From contig NZ_VSSB01000002.1 of assembly GCF_008122505.1 (NCBI RefSeq), forward strand, positions 434,001-498,000: DNA of 64,000 nucleotides, written 5' to 3'. Shown in pieces: positions 2 through 7,376 of this stretch. Every line of letters begins with the position of its first letter. Positions within the stretch are counted from its first letter, which is position 1. A model generated the notes under the pieces. It worked only from the letters and a program-made list of their open reading frames with translations. It was not told where the DNA came from and did not search any database. Source of the stretch: Agromyces mariniharenae. GTDB taxonomy: Bacteria; Actinomycetota; Actinomycetes; Actinomycetales; Microbacteriaceae. Made by a program: the position numbers and the translations under genes.

Positions 2-1477
2 CAGGGATCGCCGCTGGGGTTCTACTACGCGCTGGTCGACCCGGTGACCGAATCGGGTGCCGTGCACCCGATCGCGGCGCAGATGAACGCGATCGGCTAC
101 GACGCCGTCGCGCTCGGCAACCACGAGTTCAACTACGGCCTCGACTTCCTCGACTACTGGATCGACCAGATGGACGCCGACGTGCTCGCCGCGAACGCCG
201 TGCACGCCGGCACGAAGGTGCCCGCCTACACCCCGTACGTGATCAAGACGATGAAGGTGCCGGGTCGCCCGCCGATCCGCGTCGGCGTGCTCGGCCTCAC
301 CAACCCAGGCGTCGTGATCTGGGACAAGGCCAACGTCAGCGGAAGGATCGAGGTGCAGGACCTCGTCGAGACCGCAGCGCGTTGGGTGCCCGTCATGCGC
401 CGCGCCGGCGCCCACGTCGTGGTCGTGAGCGCCCACTCGGGCGACAACGGCCGCTCGTCGTACACCGGCGACCTCCCGGTCGAGAACGCGGCCGCGCTCG
501 TGGCCGAGCAGGTGCCCGGCATCGACGCGATCCTGTTCGGCCACGCGCACGTCGACGTGCCGCAGCGGATCGTGAAGAACCTCGCGACCGGCCGCGACGT
601 GGTGCTCAGCGAGCCGAAGAACTGGGGCCAGCGCCTCAGCGTCTTCGACCTGACCGTCGAGTACGCGAAGGGCAAGTGGTCGGTCACGTCGGGTTCGTCG
701 ACCACGGTGAACACGAACGCCGTCGTCGACGATCCGGCTCTCGTCGCCGTGGTGCGCGCCCAGCACGACGCCGTGGTGAGCTACGTCAACACGCCCGTGG
801 CGGTGTCGACCGAGGCGATGTCGGCGGCGGAGGCGTGCTGGAAGGACACGGCGATCCTCGACTACGTCAATGCCGTGCAGACGGCGACCGTCGCGGCCGC
901 CGTGGCGGGCACGCCCGAGGCGGCGCTTCCGATCGTGTCGATCGCGGCGCCCTTCAACCGTGCGGCGACCTTCCCGGCCGGACAGGTGACCATCAAGGAC
1001 GTCGCGGGGTTGTACATCTACGACAACACCCTCCTCGCCTCGATCCTCACCGGCGCCGAGATCAAGGACTACCTCGAGTACTCGGCGAAGTACTTCGCCG
1101 TGGTGGCGCCCGATGCCCCGGTCGCACCGGCGACGTGGACGAATGCGGGGAACACGCCCGATTACAACTACGACCAGTTCTCGGGCGTCGAGTACGGCGT
1201 GGACATCTCGCAGCCGGTCGGCTCGCGCATCGTCGGCCTCTCGTTCGAGGGCGCTCCGGTCGCGGCCGACCAGCAGTTCCTCGTCGCCGTCAACAATTAC
1301 CGGCAGTCGGGCGGCGGCGGGTTCCCGCACATCCAGGGTGCGCCGGTCGTCTACAACGCCCAGGTCGCGATCCGCGAGGCCATCGTCTCGTACGCGTCGG
1401 CGGCGGGCGCGATCGATCCGGCGGACTTCCACGTCGAGAACTGGCAGCTCGTGCGGAACGGAACACCCGTGTTCTGA
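2..1477 (+). CDS. secreted 2',3'-cyclic-nucleotide phosphodiesterase / 5'-nucleotidase family protein, 5' end missing
   Basis: The gene runs in from before the window; the open frame begins at base 2. The first visible residues, QGSPL, match the motif that follows the metal-binding DNGD of the CpdB/UshA family. Further metallophosphatase motifs follow: GNHEFNYG, HSGDNG and FGHAHVD, each supplying metal ligands of the dinuclear site. The C-terminal half (from about base 800) is the nucleotide-binding 5'-nucleotidase C domain, with the GGGGFPH loop. Family members are exported and release phosphate and nucleosides from extracellular nucleotides. The signal peptide and the first metal ligands lie outside the window, so the precise substrate cannot be judged. 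A GC-rich hairpin 21 bases after the stop ends the transcript. Confidence 0.9.
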   Translation, partial: QGSPLGFYYALVDPVTESGAVHPIAAQMNAIGYDAVALGNHEFNYGLDFLDYWIDQMDADVLAANAVHAGTKVPAYTPYVIKTMKVPGRPPIRVGVLGLTNPGVVIWDKANVSGRIEVQDLVETAARWVPVMRRAGAHVVVVSAHSGDNGRSSYTGDLPVENAAALVAEQVPGIDAILFGHAHVDVPQRIVKNLATGRDVVLSEPKNWGQRLSVFDLTVEYAKGKWSVTSGSSTTVNTNAVVDDPALVAVVRAQHDAVVSYVNTPVAVSTEAMSAAEACWKDTAILDYVNAVQTATVAAAVAGTPEAALPIVSIAAPFNRAATFPAGQVTIKDVAGLYIYDNTLLASILTGAEIKDYLEYSAKYFAVVAPDAPVAPATWTNAGNTPDYNYDQFSGVEYGVDISQPVGSRIVGLSFEGAPVAADQQFLVAVNNYRQSGGGGFPHIQGAPVVYNAQVAIREAIVSYASAAGAIDPADFHVENWQLVRNGTPVF

Positions 1478-1532: not shown

Positions 1533-1590
1533 GCATACCGTCGAATGGGTGCATACCTCGCGCATACCTCCCGGGAGACGGCCGCATACC
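1533..1590 (+). promoter_or_regulatory. four GCATACC heptamer repeats, probable SARP operator and promoter
   Basis: GCATACC occurs at 1533, 1551, 1562 and 1584, all in the same orientation, with start-to-start distances of 18, 11 and 22 bases. SARP-family activators are known to bind direct heptamer repeats spaced by 11 or 22 bases. The last heptamer begins 28 bases before the ATG of the small exported protein. The same heptamer and the same 11/22 spacing recur before the paralogous gene at 6424. No good -10 box lies after the last heptamer, so the last GCATACC may itself overlap the -10 position (inference). Confidence 0.75.
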
Positions 1591-1611
1591 GCGGCATCCG
1601 ATGGTGGAGGC

Positions 1612-2004
1612 ATGAACACCACCACCGCATTCACCCGCCTCACCGCCGCCGCGGCCGCCGCCGCTCTCGCGGTGACCGTCGTCGGATCCGCCAGCGCCGC
1701 GAGCGCCGCCGAGGCCGACTCCCGCGCCGGCCAGATCGTCCGGCCCATCACCACGCCCGCCATGCATCGCGAGCTCGTGCGCGAGTCTGCGCTCCGCTAC
1801 GTGAACGAGCTCGAGGTCCGTGCGCACATGGCGCAGGGGACCGCCACGAAGACGGTTGCAATGCACAGCGAGCTCGTGCGCGAGTCCGCGCTCCGCTACG
1901 TGAACGAGCTCGAGGTCCGTGCCCACATGGCGGAGGACGAGGTCGTCGAGACGACCGCCGCTGCGCCCGTCCACGACGACCTGAGCCCCCTCGACGGTCG
2001 TTGA
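1612..2004 (+). CDS. small exported protein with an internal tandem repeat
   Basis: A protein of 130 residues that I cannot assign to a known family. Residues 1-33 form a signal peptide: MNT, an Arg, an Ala-rich hydrophobic stretch and SASA/ASAA sites suited to signal peptidase I. Two nearly identical 24-residue copies follow, each running MH-x-ELVRESALRYVNEL then EVRAHMA, 33 residues apart. Each copy looks like a charged amphipathic helix. The protein is paralogous to the lipoprotein at 6424, sharing MNTxTA at the start and the MH..LV...A.RYV.EL.VRA core. GGTGGAGG sits immediately before the ATG. The gene converges on the large SARP regulator and has the SARP-type heptamer array upstream, so it is probably a target of that regulator. 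Confidence 0.8.
   Translation: MNTTTAFTRLTAAAAAAALAVTVVGSASAASAAEADSRAGQIVRPITTPAMHRELVRESALRYVNELEVRAHMAQGTATKTVAMHSELVRESALRYVNELEVRAHMAEDEVVETTAAAPVHDDLSPLDGR
1762..1932 (+). repeat. 72-base unit duplicated within the small exported gene
   Basis: Bases 1762-1833 and 1861-1932 are almost identical. They differ mainly at the third codon (CGC against AGC), a TCT/TCC wobble and a GCG/GCC wobble. The period is 99 bases (33 codons). Such near identity at synonymous sites points to a recent in-frame duplication. Confidence 0.9.
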
Positions 2005-2045
2005 CCCACCCCGGTCGCGGCGATCGCGACCACCACCAACACCCC

Positions 2046-2073
2046 GGCGGGGTCGGCTCAGGCCGGCCCCGCC
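2046..2073. terminator. bidirectional hairpin between convergent genes
   Basis: The arms GGCGGGGTCGGC and GCCGGCCCCGCC pair with one G-T wobble around a short loop. It lies between the stop of the small exported gene and the stop of the opposing regulator, where it can serve both. Confidence 0.6.
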
Positions 2074-2090
2074 TTCGCATGCGCGCGTGA

Positions 2091-5000
2091 TCAGTCGAAC
2101 CCGCAGGTGCTCTGCGGATCGCCCAGGTCCCCGAGGTACGTGCTCCACTCGTCCTCGGTGAGGTCCCGGCCGGCGAGCTGGCAGGCGAACCCGAACTGGT
2201 GCTCGGGGTCGAGGTCCCAGAGCATGACGCCGCCAGGCATCGACACGGCCATCTCGCGGCCGTCAGGGCGGAGCACGGCCACGCCGACCGTACGCCCGTC
2301 GGTGCGGAGGGGGTCGCCGATCCGGGTGCCCGAGGGTGTGTCGTAGAGCAGCGCCGTGCCATCGGCCGCCATGACGAGCAGCATCCGTGCGTCGCGGCTC
2401 AGCGACGGCGCCTGGAGTCCTCCCGCGGCACCGGCGATGGTCCCCACCCTCGCGATCGGCTCCGTCTCGTAGCGTCCGATGCGGTTGTTCTCGAGGGCGA
2501 TCAGGTCGCCGTCTTCGAGCAGCACGTGCTCGTCGAACGATGTCGCCTCGTCGTACAGGACTCGATCCTCCCCGCTGTCCACGATCGACAGGCGGAGCCG
2601 GAGCTGCTCGCTCGTGAGTCCCTCGGTCGGCGACCGTGAGTACGTGTTCTCCTGGTAGCTGACGGCGATGCGTTCGCCGTCTGGCGAGGCCGAGAGCCAC
2701 CGGGCCCAGCCATCCACCGGCCAGGAGTCGTCGGCGGCCTCGGCTGTCTCCGGATCGAAGGCCTGGATCCGTCCGTCCGTGCGTATCGCCTGGAGCAGCT
2801 CGCCGTCGCCGCTCGGGAAGAACCGCGCCACGTTCCACTTCGACTCGCCGACCTGGTCCCAGGACTCGGTGTCGAGGAATCGGAACTGCCCGGTGTCAGC
2901 ACTCTCCGCGATGAGGCGCCCATCGGCCCATACGACGTCGGTGACGGGACCCGTGAATCGATACTCGACCTCGCCCGTCGCCGTGTCCTGCACGACGGCG
3001 CCCTCGAACGCGGTGCTGGTGACGACGGCCTGCGGGGCGACGACCAGCGCGCTGCCGTCCGTGGAGTACGGACCGACCACCATCTGCCCCGGCGCGAGCA
3101 TGCGGTGCCCGAGGCCCTCGCCATCGAGCTGCCAGTGCGAGACCAGCGGGTGGCTGCCGCTGATCGCGAGCAGGGTCGCGTCACCGACGACGTCCATCGG
3201 CCCGACCTCGCCGTACAGTGGGCCGAGCTCCTCCGCTGGCAGCGGTGCGCCATCGACCAGCGAGTACGCGCTGATCAGCCCGAATCGGCTGCCGCAGTAT
3301 GCGCGCTGCAACTCCTCCGCCACGGCGAGCCAGTTGCACGGGGCAAGGTATGGCCGGGCGATGTCGGTGGACCATCGCACTTGGCCATCATCGGGGTCGA
3401 AGGCGACCAGGTGCCGGTCGCCGGAAGCCACGACGAGCCCCGAGGGCGCGACGGCCATGGCGACGTGCGCCGAGCTCTCGGGCATGATCAGGCTGCCGGT
3501 GATGCTCGCCGAGCTCGCGTCGATCACGTCCACTCGGTCATCGAGACGCCCGACGAGCAGCCGGTTCCGGTCGTCGAACACGATCGCTGCAGCGAACGTC
3601 TCGCGGTCGAGGTCGACGGTCGTCTCACCGCCGACCGTGGACATGCTCCCGTCCGCGGTTGCCAGGAGCGTGACAGCCCCGTGACGCGAGTCCGCGATCG
3701 CGATGATCGAACCGTCGGCATCGACCGCGAGCGCGCCCGCCCCGACGGGAATGAGCTCCGGTCCGAAGATGCGCCGTCCGGCTTCGAGGTCGAATGCCAC
3801 GACCTCCGACTGCGTCGAAGTGCCGTAGGGGGCGGGCCCGGCCAGCTGGGTGCGTACCGACCAGATGACGGCGGCCACGCGTCCGTCGGCACTCACCTCG
3901 ACGAGTGGTGCCGGTTTCGGCGGGCCGGGCACGTACCCCAGGTCGAGCTCGCGGACCACGTCGCCCGTCTCGGCGTCGCGGACGGCGGCCTCGCCAGCGG
4001 TGTTCACCACCACGACCTGGCCGGTGCCCGGGACCACGCTCCCGTACGTGTTCCCGTCGTCGGCCAGGATCGTGTTCCCGAGGAACCCGCCGGCGCCCTG
4101 CAGCACGCCCATGAGTCCGGAGCGCGTGCGCGGATCGTCGGGCCAGCGCCGGTAGGCCTCCGCGGCGAGCAGCGCGGACACGTCGCGCTCCGACGATCGC
4201 AGCGCGAGCGCCGTGCCGACGAGGGCCTCGATCGCGGCGCTGTCGCGCTGCGCGCTCGCCTCCTGCGACGAGCCGACGGCGACCGATCCGGCGCCGACGA
4301 GCAGGACGATGAGACCCGCGGCGACGCCGAGCAGCACGCGCAGACGCCGGTTCTGGCGGCGGTCCCGGACTGCGCGCTCGGCGAGCTGCTCCTGCTCGGC
4401 CGTCGCGCGGGCGGCCGAGGCGTCGAGGAAGGCCGACTCGACGTCGGTCAGGTCCGCCGGCGAGGCGTCGCGCCACTCGAGCGCGGCCTGCAGTCGCACG
4501 CCCCGGTAGAGGTCGTCGTCGGGGCGGTCGGCGGCGTTCCACGCCTCGGCCGCGGCGGCGACGGCCGTGAGCATGCGCGTGCTCTCGGCGTCCTCCTCGA
4601 GCCAGGACTGCAGCCGTGGCCACGCGGTCGCGAGCGACTCGTGGGCCACCTCGACCGATTCGGCCTCGGTGCTCACGAGCCGCGAGCGGGCGAGCATCGT
4701 CAGCACCTCGTCGCGCGCGGCATCCGTTCGCAGCGGCTTCGACGACACCCGGCGACGCACCGGGCTGCCGTCGGGGGCGAGGGCCATGAGCCGGAGCAGG
4801 AGGGAGCGGCACACCGCCCGCTGGTCGGCGCTCATCGACTGGTAGAGGCGGTCGGCGGACTGGGCGATCGCGCCCGAGATGCCACCGGATGCCTCGTATC
4901 CGGCGACCGTCATCGTCGCGCCCTCCCGCCGGAGCCAGGTCTCGACGAGGGCATGCGAGAGGTGGGGAAGCGCGCCGGTCTCGCCCGCGGCATCCCGCAG

Positions 5001-6308
5001 GATGACCTCGACCAGGCCGGGTTCGAGCCGGAGTCCGGCCCGTCTCGCCGGCTGTTCGATGGCTGCGCGGAGGGCATCGGGCGTCATCGGCCCGAGCAGG
5101 TGCACGCGCTCCGCGACGAGCGGCGCGAGGTCGGGGTGCGCAGCGCAGTCGTCGAGGAAGTCCGAACGCACGACGAGGATGACCGTCGTCTCGATCACGA
5201 CGGCGTCGAAGATGGCTCGCGCGGCGGCGTCCACGTCGGCCTCACCGGCGTGGAAGACCTCCTCGAACTGGTCGATGACGACGACATCAGCGCGACGCGC
5301 GCCCATGGCGGCGTCGCGAATGCGGATGTCGAGGTCGCGCTCGGGCGTGAGGATCGCGACCCGGTCGCCGCGTCGTTGCAGGGCGGGCACGATGCCGGCC
5401 CGGACGAGCGACGACTTGCCGCTGCCCGAGGCGCCCGACACGGCGAGGAAGCTCGAGCGTGCGAGACGGGCGAGGGCCGCGGCGATGTCGGCCTCGCGAC
5501 CGAAGAACTCGTCCTCGTCGTCGACGCCGAACGGCTGCAGGCCGCGGTACGGACACGCTGCACTCGGCGCCGACGGGGCCGTCTCGAGGTCGAGCGCGTC
5601 GTCGTGACGGAGGATCCCGAGCTCGAGCTGGGTCAGTTCGGCGCCTGGCTCGGCGCCGAGCTCGTCCGCCAGTCGCTCCCGGGCCGTCCGGATGGCAGCG
5701 AGCGCGTCTGCCTGGCGACCGCTCCGATAGAGGGCGGTGGCGAGGAGCACCCAGCGGCGCTCCCTGAGCGGCGCCTCCCGCACGAGCTGCTCGCCGTCGC
5801 CGATAGCGGCCGCATGCGCGCCCGTGCGGAGCCGGCCGTCGAGACGCACCTCCTCGAGCTCCATCCGCACCTCGTCGAGCCGCTCCGATTCGACGATCGC
5901 CGGGGGCCACGATGCGAGGTCGGAATAGGGGGCTCCGCGCCAGAGCGCGAGGGCCCGATCGGCGGCGTCGACGGCACGCGCGGGGTCGTCGTCGAGGTGC
6001 TCCCGCGCGGATGCCGCGAGGCGCTCGAAACGCTCGACGTCGACGCTCTCGGGGTCGATCCGCAGCACGTACGCACCTGGTGCGGTCTCGATCGCGTGAT
6101 GCCCGATCGCGTTGCGCACGCGGCCGACCGACGCCTGCAGCTGCTTCGGCCACGTGCCAGGGAGCTCGTCGCCCCAGAGCGCCTCGGCGAGCTCATCCGT
6201 CGTCACCTGTCGACCGGCCCGAAGCACCAGTGCCGACAGCACGGTCCGCTCCCGCGGACTGAGCGAGACCCCCTCGACGGTGAGGGGGCCGAAGACTCCC
6301 ACGCCCAT
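2091..6308 (-). CDS. membrane-tethered SARP-type regulator with nSTAND NTPase and beta-propeller
   Basis: A 1405-residue transcription factor. Residues 1-90 are an OmpR/SARP winged helix (VFGPLTVEG, ELAEALWG, LQASVGRVRNAIG). Residues 90-235 are the bacterial transcriptional activation domain. Residues 250-620 are an nSTAND1-type NTPase with Walker A GASGSGKSS at 292-300 and Walker B VVVIDQFEE at 342-350. One transmembrane helix lies at about 658-679, preceded by the basic RRQNRRLR, so the N-terminus should be cytoplasmic. The remaining 700 residues are a WD40/quinoprotein-like propeller placed outside the cell. An upstream in-frame ATG at 6317 is possible; I chose 6308 because the domain begins at once and GGAG precedes it. 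Neighbours on both sides are small exported proteins with GCATACC arrays. Known SARPs are usually soluble; the tethered design resembles CadC/ToxR one-component sensors. Confidence 0.85.
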   Translation of the reverse strand: MGVGVFGPLTVEGVSLSPRERTVLSALVLRAGRQVTTDELAEALWGDELPGTWPKQLQASVGRVRNAIGHHAIETAPGAYVLRIDPESVDVERFERLAASAREHLDDDPARAVDAADRALALWRGAPYSDLASWPPAIVESERLDEVRMELEEVRLDGRLRTGAHAAAIGDGEQLVREAPLRERRWVLLATALYRSGRQADALAAIRTARERLADELGAEPGAELTQLELGILRHDDALDLETAPSAPSAACPYRGLQPFGVDDEDEFFGREADIAAALARLARSSFLAVSGASGSGKSSLVRAGIVPALQRRGDRVAILTPERDLDIRIRDAAMGARRADVVVIDQFEEVFHAGEADVDAAARAIFDAVVIETTVILVVRSDFLDDCAAHPDLAPLVAERVHLLGPMTPDALRAAIEQPARRAGLRLEPGLVEVILRDAAGETGALPHLSHALVETWLRREGATMTVAGYEASGGISGAIAQSADRLYQSMSADQRAVCRSLLLRLMALAPDGSPVRRRVSSKPLRTDAARDEVLTMLARSRLVSTEAESVEVAHESLATAWPRLQSWLEEDAESTRMLTAVAAAAEAWNAADRPDDDLYRGVRLQAALEWRDASPADLTDVESAFLDASAARATAEQEQLAERAVRDRRQNRRLRVLLGVAAGLIVLLVGAGSVAVGSSQEASAQRDSAAIEALVGTALALRSSERDVSALLAAEAYRRWPDDPRTRSGLMGVLQGAGGFLGNTILADDGNTYGSVVPGTGQVVVVNTAGEAAVRDAETGDVVRELDLGYVPGPPKPAPLVEVSADGRVAAVIWSVRTQLAGPAPYGTSTQSEVVAFDLEAGRRIFGPELIPVGAGALAVDADGSIIAIADSRHGAVTLLATADGSMSTVGGETTVDLDRETFAAAIVFDDRNRLLVGRLDDRVDVIDASSASITGSLIMPESSAHVAMAVAPSGLVVASGDRHLVAFDPDDGQVRWSTDIARPYLAPCNWLAVAEELQRAYCGSRFGLISAYSLVDGAPLPAEELGPLYGEVGPMDVVGDATLLAISGSHPLVSHWQLDGEGLGHRMLAPGQMVVGPYSTDGSALVVAPQAVVTSTAFEGAVVQDTATGEVEYRFTGPVTDVVWADGRLIAESADTGQFRFLDTESWDQVGESKWNVARFFPSGDGELLQAIRTDGRIQAFDPETAEAADDSWPVDGWARWLSASPDGERIAVSYQENTYSRSPTEGLTSEQLRLRLSIVDSGEDRVLYDEATSFDEHVLLEDGDLIALENNRIGRYETEPIARVGTIAGAAGGLQAPSLSRDARMLLVMAADGTALLYDTPSGTRIGDPLRTDGRTVGVAVLRPDGREMAVSMPGGVMLWDLDPEHQFGFACQLAGRDLTEDEWSTYLGDLGDPQSTCGFD

Positions 6309-6352
6309 GCTCCGCATTGTTCGCCGTCCGACGGCGCCCGTCAACGACGAAC

Positions 6353-6401
6353 GCATACCGTGCATACCGGTTGCATACCGATCCGGGGTCGGTCGCATAC
6401 C
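6353..6401 (+). promoter_or_regulatory. second array of four GCATACC heptamers in a divergent promoter
   Basis: GCATACC occurs at 6353, 6362, 6373 and 6395, spaced 9, 11 and 22 bases. The last three copies have the same 11/22 spacing as the array at 1533-1590. The last copy starts 29 bases before the ATG at 6424. The array also lies 45-93 bases upstream of the regulator start at 6308 on the other strand, so it could serve autoregulation as well. Confidence 0.75.
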
Positions 6402-6423
6402 CCGTCGGTGGAGCGTGGGAGGC

Positions 6424-6690
6424 ATGAACACCGCAACCGCTTCGCTCCGACTCGTCGTCGCGGCATCCGTGGTCGCATTCGCCACGTGCCTCGCGGGATG
6501 CGCGGCGCCCTCACCGACCGCAGGGTCGCGCGCCCTTCTGCTCCCACCGCACGTCGACGCGGCGATGCACGACGCGCTCGTGCACCAGGCAGCCGACCGC
6601 TACGTGATCGAGCTGCTCGTCCGCGCACGCCTGGCCGACGAGGCGGTGGCATCGCGGGGTCGGGTCATCACCCGCGTGCACGGGCGCTGA
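6424..6690 (+). CDS. small lipoprotein, paralogue of the exported repeat protein
   Basis: An 88-residue lipoprotein precursor. Residues 1-26 form a type II signal peptide ending in the lipobox LAGC, with Cys26 the lipidated residue. The mature part contains one copy of the motif found twice in the protein at 1612: MHDALVHQAADRYVIEL followed by LVRARLA. The two precursors also share the start MNTxTA. This copy should be tethered to the membrane whereas the other should be released. GGGAGG lies one base before the ATG. It is transcribed divergently from the SARP regulator and sits behind the second GCATACC array. The function is unknown; a ligand or partner for the regulator's external propeller is a reasonable guess. 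Confidence 0.8.
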   Translation: MNTATASLRLVVAASVVAFATCLAGCAAPSPTAGSRALLLPPHVDAAMHDALVHQAADRYVIELLVRARLADEAVASRGRVITRVHGR

Positions 6691-6701: not shown

Positions 6702-7376
6702 TCAGGCGGGCGCGTTCCCCCAGAACGGCCCGACGAGCCCGACGCTCGCGAAGTACGCGTGGGCCTCCTTCGGCTCGCGGCGCTGGTAGGGCGTGTCGAG
6801 CCGGCCGGCGTACCAGCCCGATGCGAGCCGCCACAGCGTCGCGAGGTCGAACACCGCGCCGCGCTCGTTGCCGGTCTCGGCGAGCCACCGATCCAGGCAC
6901 GCCTCGTCGCAGAAGATCCGCTGGTGCTCGCACGTGTGGATGACGTCGTCCCACACGTGCGCCATCGGCGTGAGGAAATGAGCGATCTGCGTCCCCTCGG
7001 GCGGGCCCTCGCGCGTCACCGTCCACGAGTGCGCGGTACCGCACGCCGGGCAGGTCGTCGCGACGAGCGCCGACGGCTCGCCGGGCACGAGGTTCGGGAT
7101 CGCGAACCCGTCCCAGGCGCACCCGCCCCACCACAGGGTGTGGTCGCCCATGACCGAGAACGCGAAGTTGCGGGTCGCGAACGGGTGGGCGAGCACGATC
7201 TGGTGGTCGTCGTCGAACACCAAGTGGCGGGATGCCGCGAGCTCCTCCATCGCCTCGGCGAGCTCGGCTGCGGTGAACCCGGTCTCCTCGACGAGCTCGG
7301 CCTCCGTCGGCAGTCGGCCGGTGCCGGCGAGGCTCGAGTAGATCGCCAGGCGCACGGTCTCGTTGCGGTCGGTCAT
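6702..7376 (-). CDS. organomercurial lyase-like (MerB family) protein
   Basis: A 224-residue protein. Residues 1-60 form a winged-helix-like N-terminal domain, as in MerB. The MerB catalytic pair C-x-x-D is visible as GGCAWDG (Cys86, Asp89), corresponding to Cys96 and Asp99 of MerB. Cys149 in HTCEHQ lines up with the third catalytic cysteine (Cys159). Extra cysteines occur in CPACG (109, 112) and at 156 and 160. MerB enzymes split the carbon-mercury bond with these residues. No merA, merR or merT is nearby, so the true substrate may differ. The gene is divergent from cutC with 75 bases between the starts. Confidence 0.75.
   Translation of the reverse strand: MTDRNETVRLAIYSSLAGTGRLPTEAELVEETGFTAAELAEAMEELAASRHLVFDDDHQIVLAHPFATRNFAFSVMGDHTLWWGGCAWDGFAIPNLVPGEPSALVATTCPACGTAHSWTVTREGPPEGTQIAHFLTPMAHVWDDVIHTCEHQRIFCDEACLDRWLAETGNERGAVFDLATLWRLASGWYAGRLDTPYQRREPKEAHAYFASVGLVGPFWGNAPA

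Follow-up and report, generated by a model that had tools for sequence, protein, structure and literature searches.

We propose that a large regulator and the two small genes flanking it in the window, the 64,000-nucleotide stretch of Agromyces mariniharenae DNA analysed here, likely form a transmembrane one-component signalling module built on a Streptomyces antibiotic regulatory protein (SARP), with a private regulon and a mostly exported output. The original prediction of a membrane-tethered SARP with matching operators in a self-contained module draws inferential support from the co-occurrence of array and regulator, from the confinement of the arrays searched to regulator clusters and from the covariation of operators with recognition helices.

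The regulator and its predicted membrane topology

The regulator is a protein of 1405 residues encoded on the reverse strand (2091..6308, ATG at 6308). Its N terminus carries an OmpR-type winged helix (Trans_reg_C, residues 13-78, 6075..6272, recognition helix at about 52-68) followed by a BTAD domain (residues 89-233, 5610..6044), each exceeding its Pfam gathering score, as befits a member of the SARP family. An nSTAND1 NTPase occupies residues 253-597 (4518..5552; Pfam, 338 bits, E 1.5e-100) and is followed by a transmembrane (TM) helix predicted from hydropathy at residues 658-676 (4281..4337). The remainder (2094..4265) comprises post-TM helices and a double WD40-like propeller, with conserved cysteines at 991, 1005, 1376 and 1402, and would lie outside the cell; all these parts are likewise read from the reverse strand. 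The propeller is of the WD40-type fold, with Pfam propeller families matching beyond residue 836, and the Foldseek and VIA matches to eukaryotic WD40 proteins are used as evidence of fold only. Residues 658-676 form the single strong hydrophobic segment (mean 2.5), a weaker one at residue 362 (1.86) falling within nSTAND1. The NCBIfam AfsR model gives 161.7 bits against a cut-off of 1430, so the protein is not a full-length AfsR-type regulator, and the Pfam scan lists propeller families and no TPR for it. Pfam and hydropathy thus confirm the predicted 1405-residue SARP-nSTAND-TM-propeller protein between two small genes for exported proteins.

A TM-like segment is found at about residue 650-665 in all 44 full-length homologues examined, with a hydropathy of 1.9-2.8, and the mean charge in these homologues is +5.1 over the 15 residues before it and -0.9 over the 15 after. 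Four propeller cysteines, arranged as two close pairs, are invariant across 43 aligned propellers. From these features we infer that the SARP and nSTAND parts lie inside the cell and the double propeller outside.

Operator arrays, putative target genes and promoters

Each small gene is preceded by an array of GCATACC boxes on the forward strand. Array A (1533..1590) has boxes at 1533, 1551, 1562 and 1584, and array B (6353..6401), lying between the divergent regulator and gene B, has them at 6353, 6362, 6373 and 6395. The four copies before each gene that had been predicted are therefore present, eight in the window, and the SARP register of 11 and 22 bp holds only for the last three boxes of each array, the first box standing 18 bp (array A) or 9 bp (array B) upstream, start to start. 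These off-register fourth boxes lie at 1533-1539 and 6353-6359, and by eye the 9-bp extra box recurs in the close relatives G760, G734, G732, G733 and G740. All eight GCATACC copies of the window fall within arrays A and B, a number reached in 0 of 100 shuffles, and the pattern GCATACC-N{4,15}-GCATACC occurs six times in the whole 4.08-Mb genome, every time at this locus.

Gene A (1612..2004, forward strand) encodes an exported protein of 130 residues with a signal-peptide-like start, no lipobox and a C-terminal DDLSPLDGR, and gene B (6424..6690, forward strand) an 88-residue lipoprotein with the lipobox LAGC and one RYVxEL motif, in keeping with the prediction of one secreted protein and one lipoprotein. 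Their predicted common core, MH..LV...A.RYV.EL.VRA, is present twice in the product of gene A, as two copies of MHxELVRESALRYVNELEVRAHMA, and once in that of gene B. Gene A is a putative second target, without a divergent regulator of its own. The predicted structure of its product has two helical repeats, and with a mean pLDDT of 66 and a pTM of 0.36 we claim nothing further from it. Used alone as a query, gene A finds matches in 8 of 150 genomes of the family, its own included, five of the other seven having E > 1e-3.

In the 27 modules with a close start codon, a conserved sAnnsTG (A and T each 96%) begins 9 bp past the third box, and ATG comes a further 6-7 bp on. Both genes of the window fit this layout, gene A with a -10-like GATGGT (1600..1605, forward strand) 9 bp past the last 7-mer and 6 bp from ATG, and gene B with GAGCGT (6411..6416, forward strand), likewise 9 bp past the last 7-mer. 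This spacing equals the 8 bp to the -10 that is the rule for SARPs, where the count starts from an 8-mer. The -10 is to be read here as a conserved sequence element rather than a mapped promoter, and its distance from ATG suggests that the target mRNAs are leaderless. No -35 was detected at the target promoters, where the best fit to TTGACA is at random level (two mismatches in 2 of 27, fewer in none). On the regulator side, TTGAC and CACAxTG-like elements about 17-18 bp apart precede the start codon, represented in the window by TTGACG (6344-6339) and ACAATG (6320-6315) on the reverse strand (6315..6344), 6 nt from ATG, so that the regulator is probably made from an ordinary promoter of its own.

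The module in relatives and its probable private regulon

Counting the window's own genome each time, the regulator has matches in 24 of 60 congeneric genomes (E<=1e-40, 10 candidates scored per genome), 13 of 398 of the family (E<=1e-40, two candidates), 19 of 347 of the order (E<=1e-70, two candidates) and 3 of 118 of the class (E<=1e-100, five candidates). Because few candidates were scored per genome, and because the SARP part is missing from some matches (in the family those of G273 and G300; in the order those of G511 and G429 and one of the two in G454), these counts are neither exact nor all of SARPs. In addition, the searches of family, order and class each sampled only some of the genomes in the group, and the score limit varied from search to search. 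Plasmids gave no regulator match at E<=1e-60, and a scan of contigs with generic nSTAND patterns gave 12 loci.

A tolerant three-box array precedes 54 of the 68 regulators for which the N terminus and upstream DNA are available; homologues without heptamers, which in most genomes would have told against the original prediction, are thus the minority. The spacing is 11/22 bp in 34 of these arrays and 11/21 bp in 20, and the array lies 53-56 bp from the start codon in 41 of the 54. A strict scan of 55 regions returned 54 arrays, 46 of them divergent at a regulator start and eight scored as orphans, and none in shuffled regions. Two of the eight orphans were rejected as artefacts, one, in G764, being a self-hit in reverse and the other belonging to a regulator match without its N terminus (G415). 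The remaining six are true orphan arrays, that of gene A included, and each stands 21-22 bp before a small gene coding for an export-type N terminus; a seventh orphan array is found in the G733 cluster. By eye, two regulators outside the order retain an 11/22 array; there too, a 22/11 array precedes the gene for a PGA_cap (CapA-type) lipoprotein (L136:1-527).

The genome-wide search covered ATACC-type and GAGTACC boxes. In the 60 congeneric genomes the ATACC-type pattern occurs at 32 places in 16 genomes, its reversed control at none, and the 16 are all among the 24 genomes with a regulator (0 of 36 without; Fisher P 4.9e-9). By coordinates every one of the 32 places belongs to a regulator cluster: 25 of them are found at a regulator start (two of these hits, in G764, overlap) and seven beside one. 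The GAGTACC version adds three places in three genomes, all at regulators. For the patterns searched, then, the sequence comparison indicates that the regulon is private to the module.

Several clusters (G738, G734, G725, G371 and G426; L078, L079, L086, L091, L102 and L128) contain regulator copies split by a frameshift, the break falling at or after the TM segment and the SARP and NTPase still being readable. In G371 the propeller has lost about 300 residues (about 765-1071) and carries a frameshift. Elsewhere the SARP is replaced by an N-terminal guanylate-cyclase-type domain in front of nSTAND1 and propeller (L114:3119-8071 and L113:2460-7427, in G273 and G429), and by its domain matches the nSTAND1-propeller sensor chassis is used with other outputs too. 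In the window, a protein of 5'-nucleotidase/metallophosphatase type (44-1477, forward strand) stands directly before array A, and a MerB (alkylmercury lyase) domain protein (6702-7376, reverse strand; Pfam, 69.9 bits) adjoins gene B; the DNA after gene B resembles, by eye, that in G769 and G760.

Operator boxes and recognition helices

The boxes are of many types, including GCATACC, CCATACC, TCATACC, GGATACC, CGATACC, GAGTACC, GGATATC, TGATACC and TGACACC. Across 52 non-redundant modules, operator distance follows recognition-helix distance when nSTAND distance is held constant (partial Mantel r 0.33, P 0.0002), and the top covarying positions, among the variable ones of the 237 N-terminal positions scanned, are 59, 58 and 55. 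With neighbours of more than 60% identity barred, the exact box is predicted in 24 of 50 cases by the triad 58-60, in 24 of 50 by the helix and in 5 of 50 by the rest of the protein; with no such bar the figures are 39, 38 and 36 of 50. Whole-body identity decided ties for the triad. Of the 52 rows, 50 entered these predictions and also the comparison at residue 59, where G at unit position 3 accompanies T59 in 7 of 7 cases and other residues in 0 of 43; on a quick tree the seven fall into two separate regions. In the cryo-EM structure of AfsR the bases are contacted by T88 and R92 (PMC10936776), which align with residues 59 and 63 of the regulator. In the 11 genomes with at least two regulators the boxes of co-resident regulators differ in 20 of 22 pairs; G740, for example, has GAGTACC, GGATACC twice and GCATACC, and G733 has TCATACC, CCATACC and GCATACC. 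Such differences suggest that each copy has evolved a private DNA address.

A number of observations weigh against the proposed module. A clear array is absent from 14 of the 68 regulators at the cut-off used, three of these (G733:C16, G732:C103 and G744:C19) forming one group of about 1134 residues (L085, L094 and L096). Two of the 54 accepted arrays have a shuffle P of 0.025, the boxes of G593 look doubtful and the divergent array has decayed in G769, the nearest relative. Operator distance also follows nSTAND distance when the helix is held constant (0.30), so descent contributes to the covariation, and tree tests with independent pairs had one to three supported pairs, a number too small to reach significance, and no opposing pair. 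The phase of the unit was fixed by our own pattern, and the covariation implies an orientation, residues 59 and 60 towards unit positions 1-3, that seems to be the reverse of the one AfsR takes with respect to the activated gene. Finally, four targets (G226, G028, one of G215, and G762) have no export signal.

Putative target proteins

A lipobox is present in 37 of 53 called target proteins; the other 16 include some with signal or TM-like segments and some with wrongly called starts. Internal repeats are significant (P<=0.01) in 21 of 37 small proteins, the product of gene B having a P of 0.99, and are of the types RYVxEL, DPRG, AERR, LRQxxEAD, GGLPDYA, DDLSPL and others. RYVxEL small genes, which the original prediction proposed to look for beside every regulator, do not accompany all of them: other modules appear to drive DPRG, AERR, LRQxxEAD or GGLPDYA proteins, some have larger lipoproteins rather than small repeat proteins as targets, and outside the order their place is taken by a lipoprotein with PGA_cap (CapA-type) or by a secreted protein resembling cupins, the cupin match scoring 22.4 bits, below its cut-off of 27.2. 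The observation is more general than the original account of it. One protein behind an orphan array, in G733, combines DPRG and LRQ motifs.

The motif A[DE]R[YRLIV], picked after the sequences had been viewed, occurs 64 times in 28 of 55 small proteins against 3.9 in shuffles. Small-protein distance follows propeller distance given nSTAND (partial Mantel r 0.36, P 0.0002) and also nSTAND distance given propeller (r 0.20, P 0.0002), so that shared descent has not been removed from the former correlation. In G371, with its broken propeller, both small genes are without RYVxEL. Ten name patterns and G728 were dropped for the repeat and Mantel statistics, leaving 37 rows, and eighteen name patterns for the motif counts, whose 55 proteins include seven added by hand (gene A's and six from orphan arrays); rows were dropped for a miscalled start or frame, an absent array or a poor fit, and the counts therefore favour well-behaved modules.

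A model for the module and its alternatives

The following model most reasonably fits these observations. The regulator, probably made from its own TTGAC/CACAxT promoter, would span the membrane, its SARP and nSTAND1 parts facing the cytoplasm and its double propeller the exterior. An outside signal arriving at the propeller would, by analogy with STAND proteins and AfsR, switch the ATP-driven nSTAND1, and this switch would let SARP protomers occupy the three-box array, a binding to which the covariation points. The bound SARP may then, as AfsR does, recruit RNA polymerase to the -35-less promoter 8-9 bp downstream. The output would be one or two adjacent, mostly exported proteins, in the window's clade short lipoproteins or secreted proteins with one to three copies of the RYVxEL helix. 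Each regulator would read its own box through recognition-helix residues at about 58-60, so that paralogues in one cell would be largely insulated from each other.

What the exported proteins do can be understood in more than one way. We put at about even chances that they are plain output, that is, surface effectors (in envelope repair or adhesion, or as an inhibitor or decoy) made in response to an unrelated outside cue and without feedback. This would suit targets that are diverse across families yet often exported, as the lipobox frequency indicates, and the targets found outside the order, the PGA_cap lipoprotein and the cupin-like protein; it leaves unexplained, however, the smallness of the regulon and the shared, swapped repeat motifs. 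Possible, although we think it the less probable, is a closed loop in which the exported repeat proteins act on the propeller as ligands or co-regulators through multivalent short repeated motifs, either as positive autoinduction or as damping of the ToxS or anti-sigma kind. The internal repeats of the 21 small proteins, the recurrence of short motifs such as A[DE]R[YRLIV] in otherwise unlike proteins, the tracking of the propeller by small-protein families given nSTAND, the loss of RYVxEL beside the partly lost propeller of G371 and a regulon that contains nothing else in the patterns searched all speak for such a loop. Against it stand the remaining correlation with nSTAND given the propeller, targets that are enzymes or enzyme-like (PGA_cap, cupin) and hence unlikely ligands, the gene B product with no internal repeat, and the occurrence, within a single cluster, of small proteins that share a box type but differ in motif (in G734 an RYV-type beside LRQxxEED). 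We regard the hints of output feedback on the sensor, namely the repeats, motif sharing, propeller correlation and G371, as real but weak, and sensing of the small proteins by the propeller, as originally predicted, as possible. More tentatively still, these may be insulated membrane-to-DNA circuits of Actinobacteria in which the propeller reads the repeat motifs of the lipoprotein it induces. The tandem copies, with their differing operators and motifs, would then make up a repertoire for self-recognition, or one like that of pheromones, and duplication, changes in the recognition helix and the swapping of motifs would diversify it.

That the regulator is instead a soluble AfsR-type protein, its hydrophobic segment a buried helix and its propeller cytoplasmic, is improbable: no membrane parts are described for AfsR, which by sequence is the closest of the solved relatives, but the strongly hydrophobic segment (1.9-2.8) in the same place in 44 of 44 full-length homologues, the strong positive-inside charge bias and the conserved cysteine pairs of the propeller argue otherwise. 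Least probable of all is a defence module, with the STAND protein as an envelope sensor of phage or of a competitor and the small exported protein as its effector. The nSTAND1 domain, the patchy presence (24 of 60 congeneric genomes) and the tandem, diversified, partly broken copies would agree with it, but a Pfam scan of 12 small proteins gave no match above cut-off.

Comparison with known systems

The transmembrane SARP module that we favour is most readily compared with AfsR-AfsS of Streptomyces, the SARP domain of AfsR being the closest solved relative by sequence (8hvr, 8k60, 8jke). AfsS is a small protein, and in both systems the gene for a small protein is a target. AfsR sites are direct repeats at 11/22 bp with the 3' repeat 8 bp from the -10 (PMC10936776); the present module shares the repeats, the 8 bp and an NTPase between SARP and sensor. 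Unlike in AfsR, nSTAND1 takes the place of the NOD, TM helix and double propeller replace the TPR, and the regulon is private and local with mostly exported targets.

By prediction, the order of cytoplasmic winged helix, one TM helix and external C-terminal sensor in one chain would be that of CadC and ToxR. CadC has an intramolecular disulfide, which is located in its sensor, and ToxR has the partner ToxS. To our knowledge neither has a BTAD or an nSTAND NTPase, and the present regulator further differs in that its sensor is a double WD40-like propeller and its hosts seen are actinobacterial relatives of the window. With PimR/SARP-LAL and other large SARPs it shares the combination of SARP and large NTPase part, the PimR site likewise having three heptamers (PMC10972967). 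The words membrane, transmembrane and WD40 do not occur in the main text of that SARP review, and in the literature searched, at the level of titles and the openings of abstracts, we recognised no description of a membrane-bound or WD40 SARP. Other nSTAND1-propeller proteins have the same chassis and differ in the guanylate-cyclase-type domain that replaces SARP in G273 and G429.

If the model is correct, a SARP would by itself relay an external signal through the membrane, as is otherwise known for ToxR and CadC. The naturally paired recognition helices and operators would then amount to a specificity code that can be read, and orthogonal membrane receptors for use in actinobacteria could be drawn from them. 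Furthermore, because each regulator has one promoter as its reporter, the module would offer a tractable probe of what bacterial STAND-propeller proteins sense.

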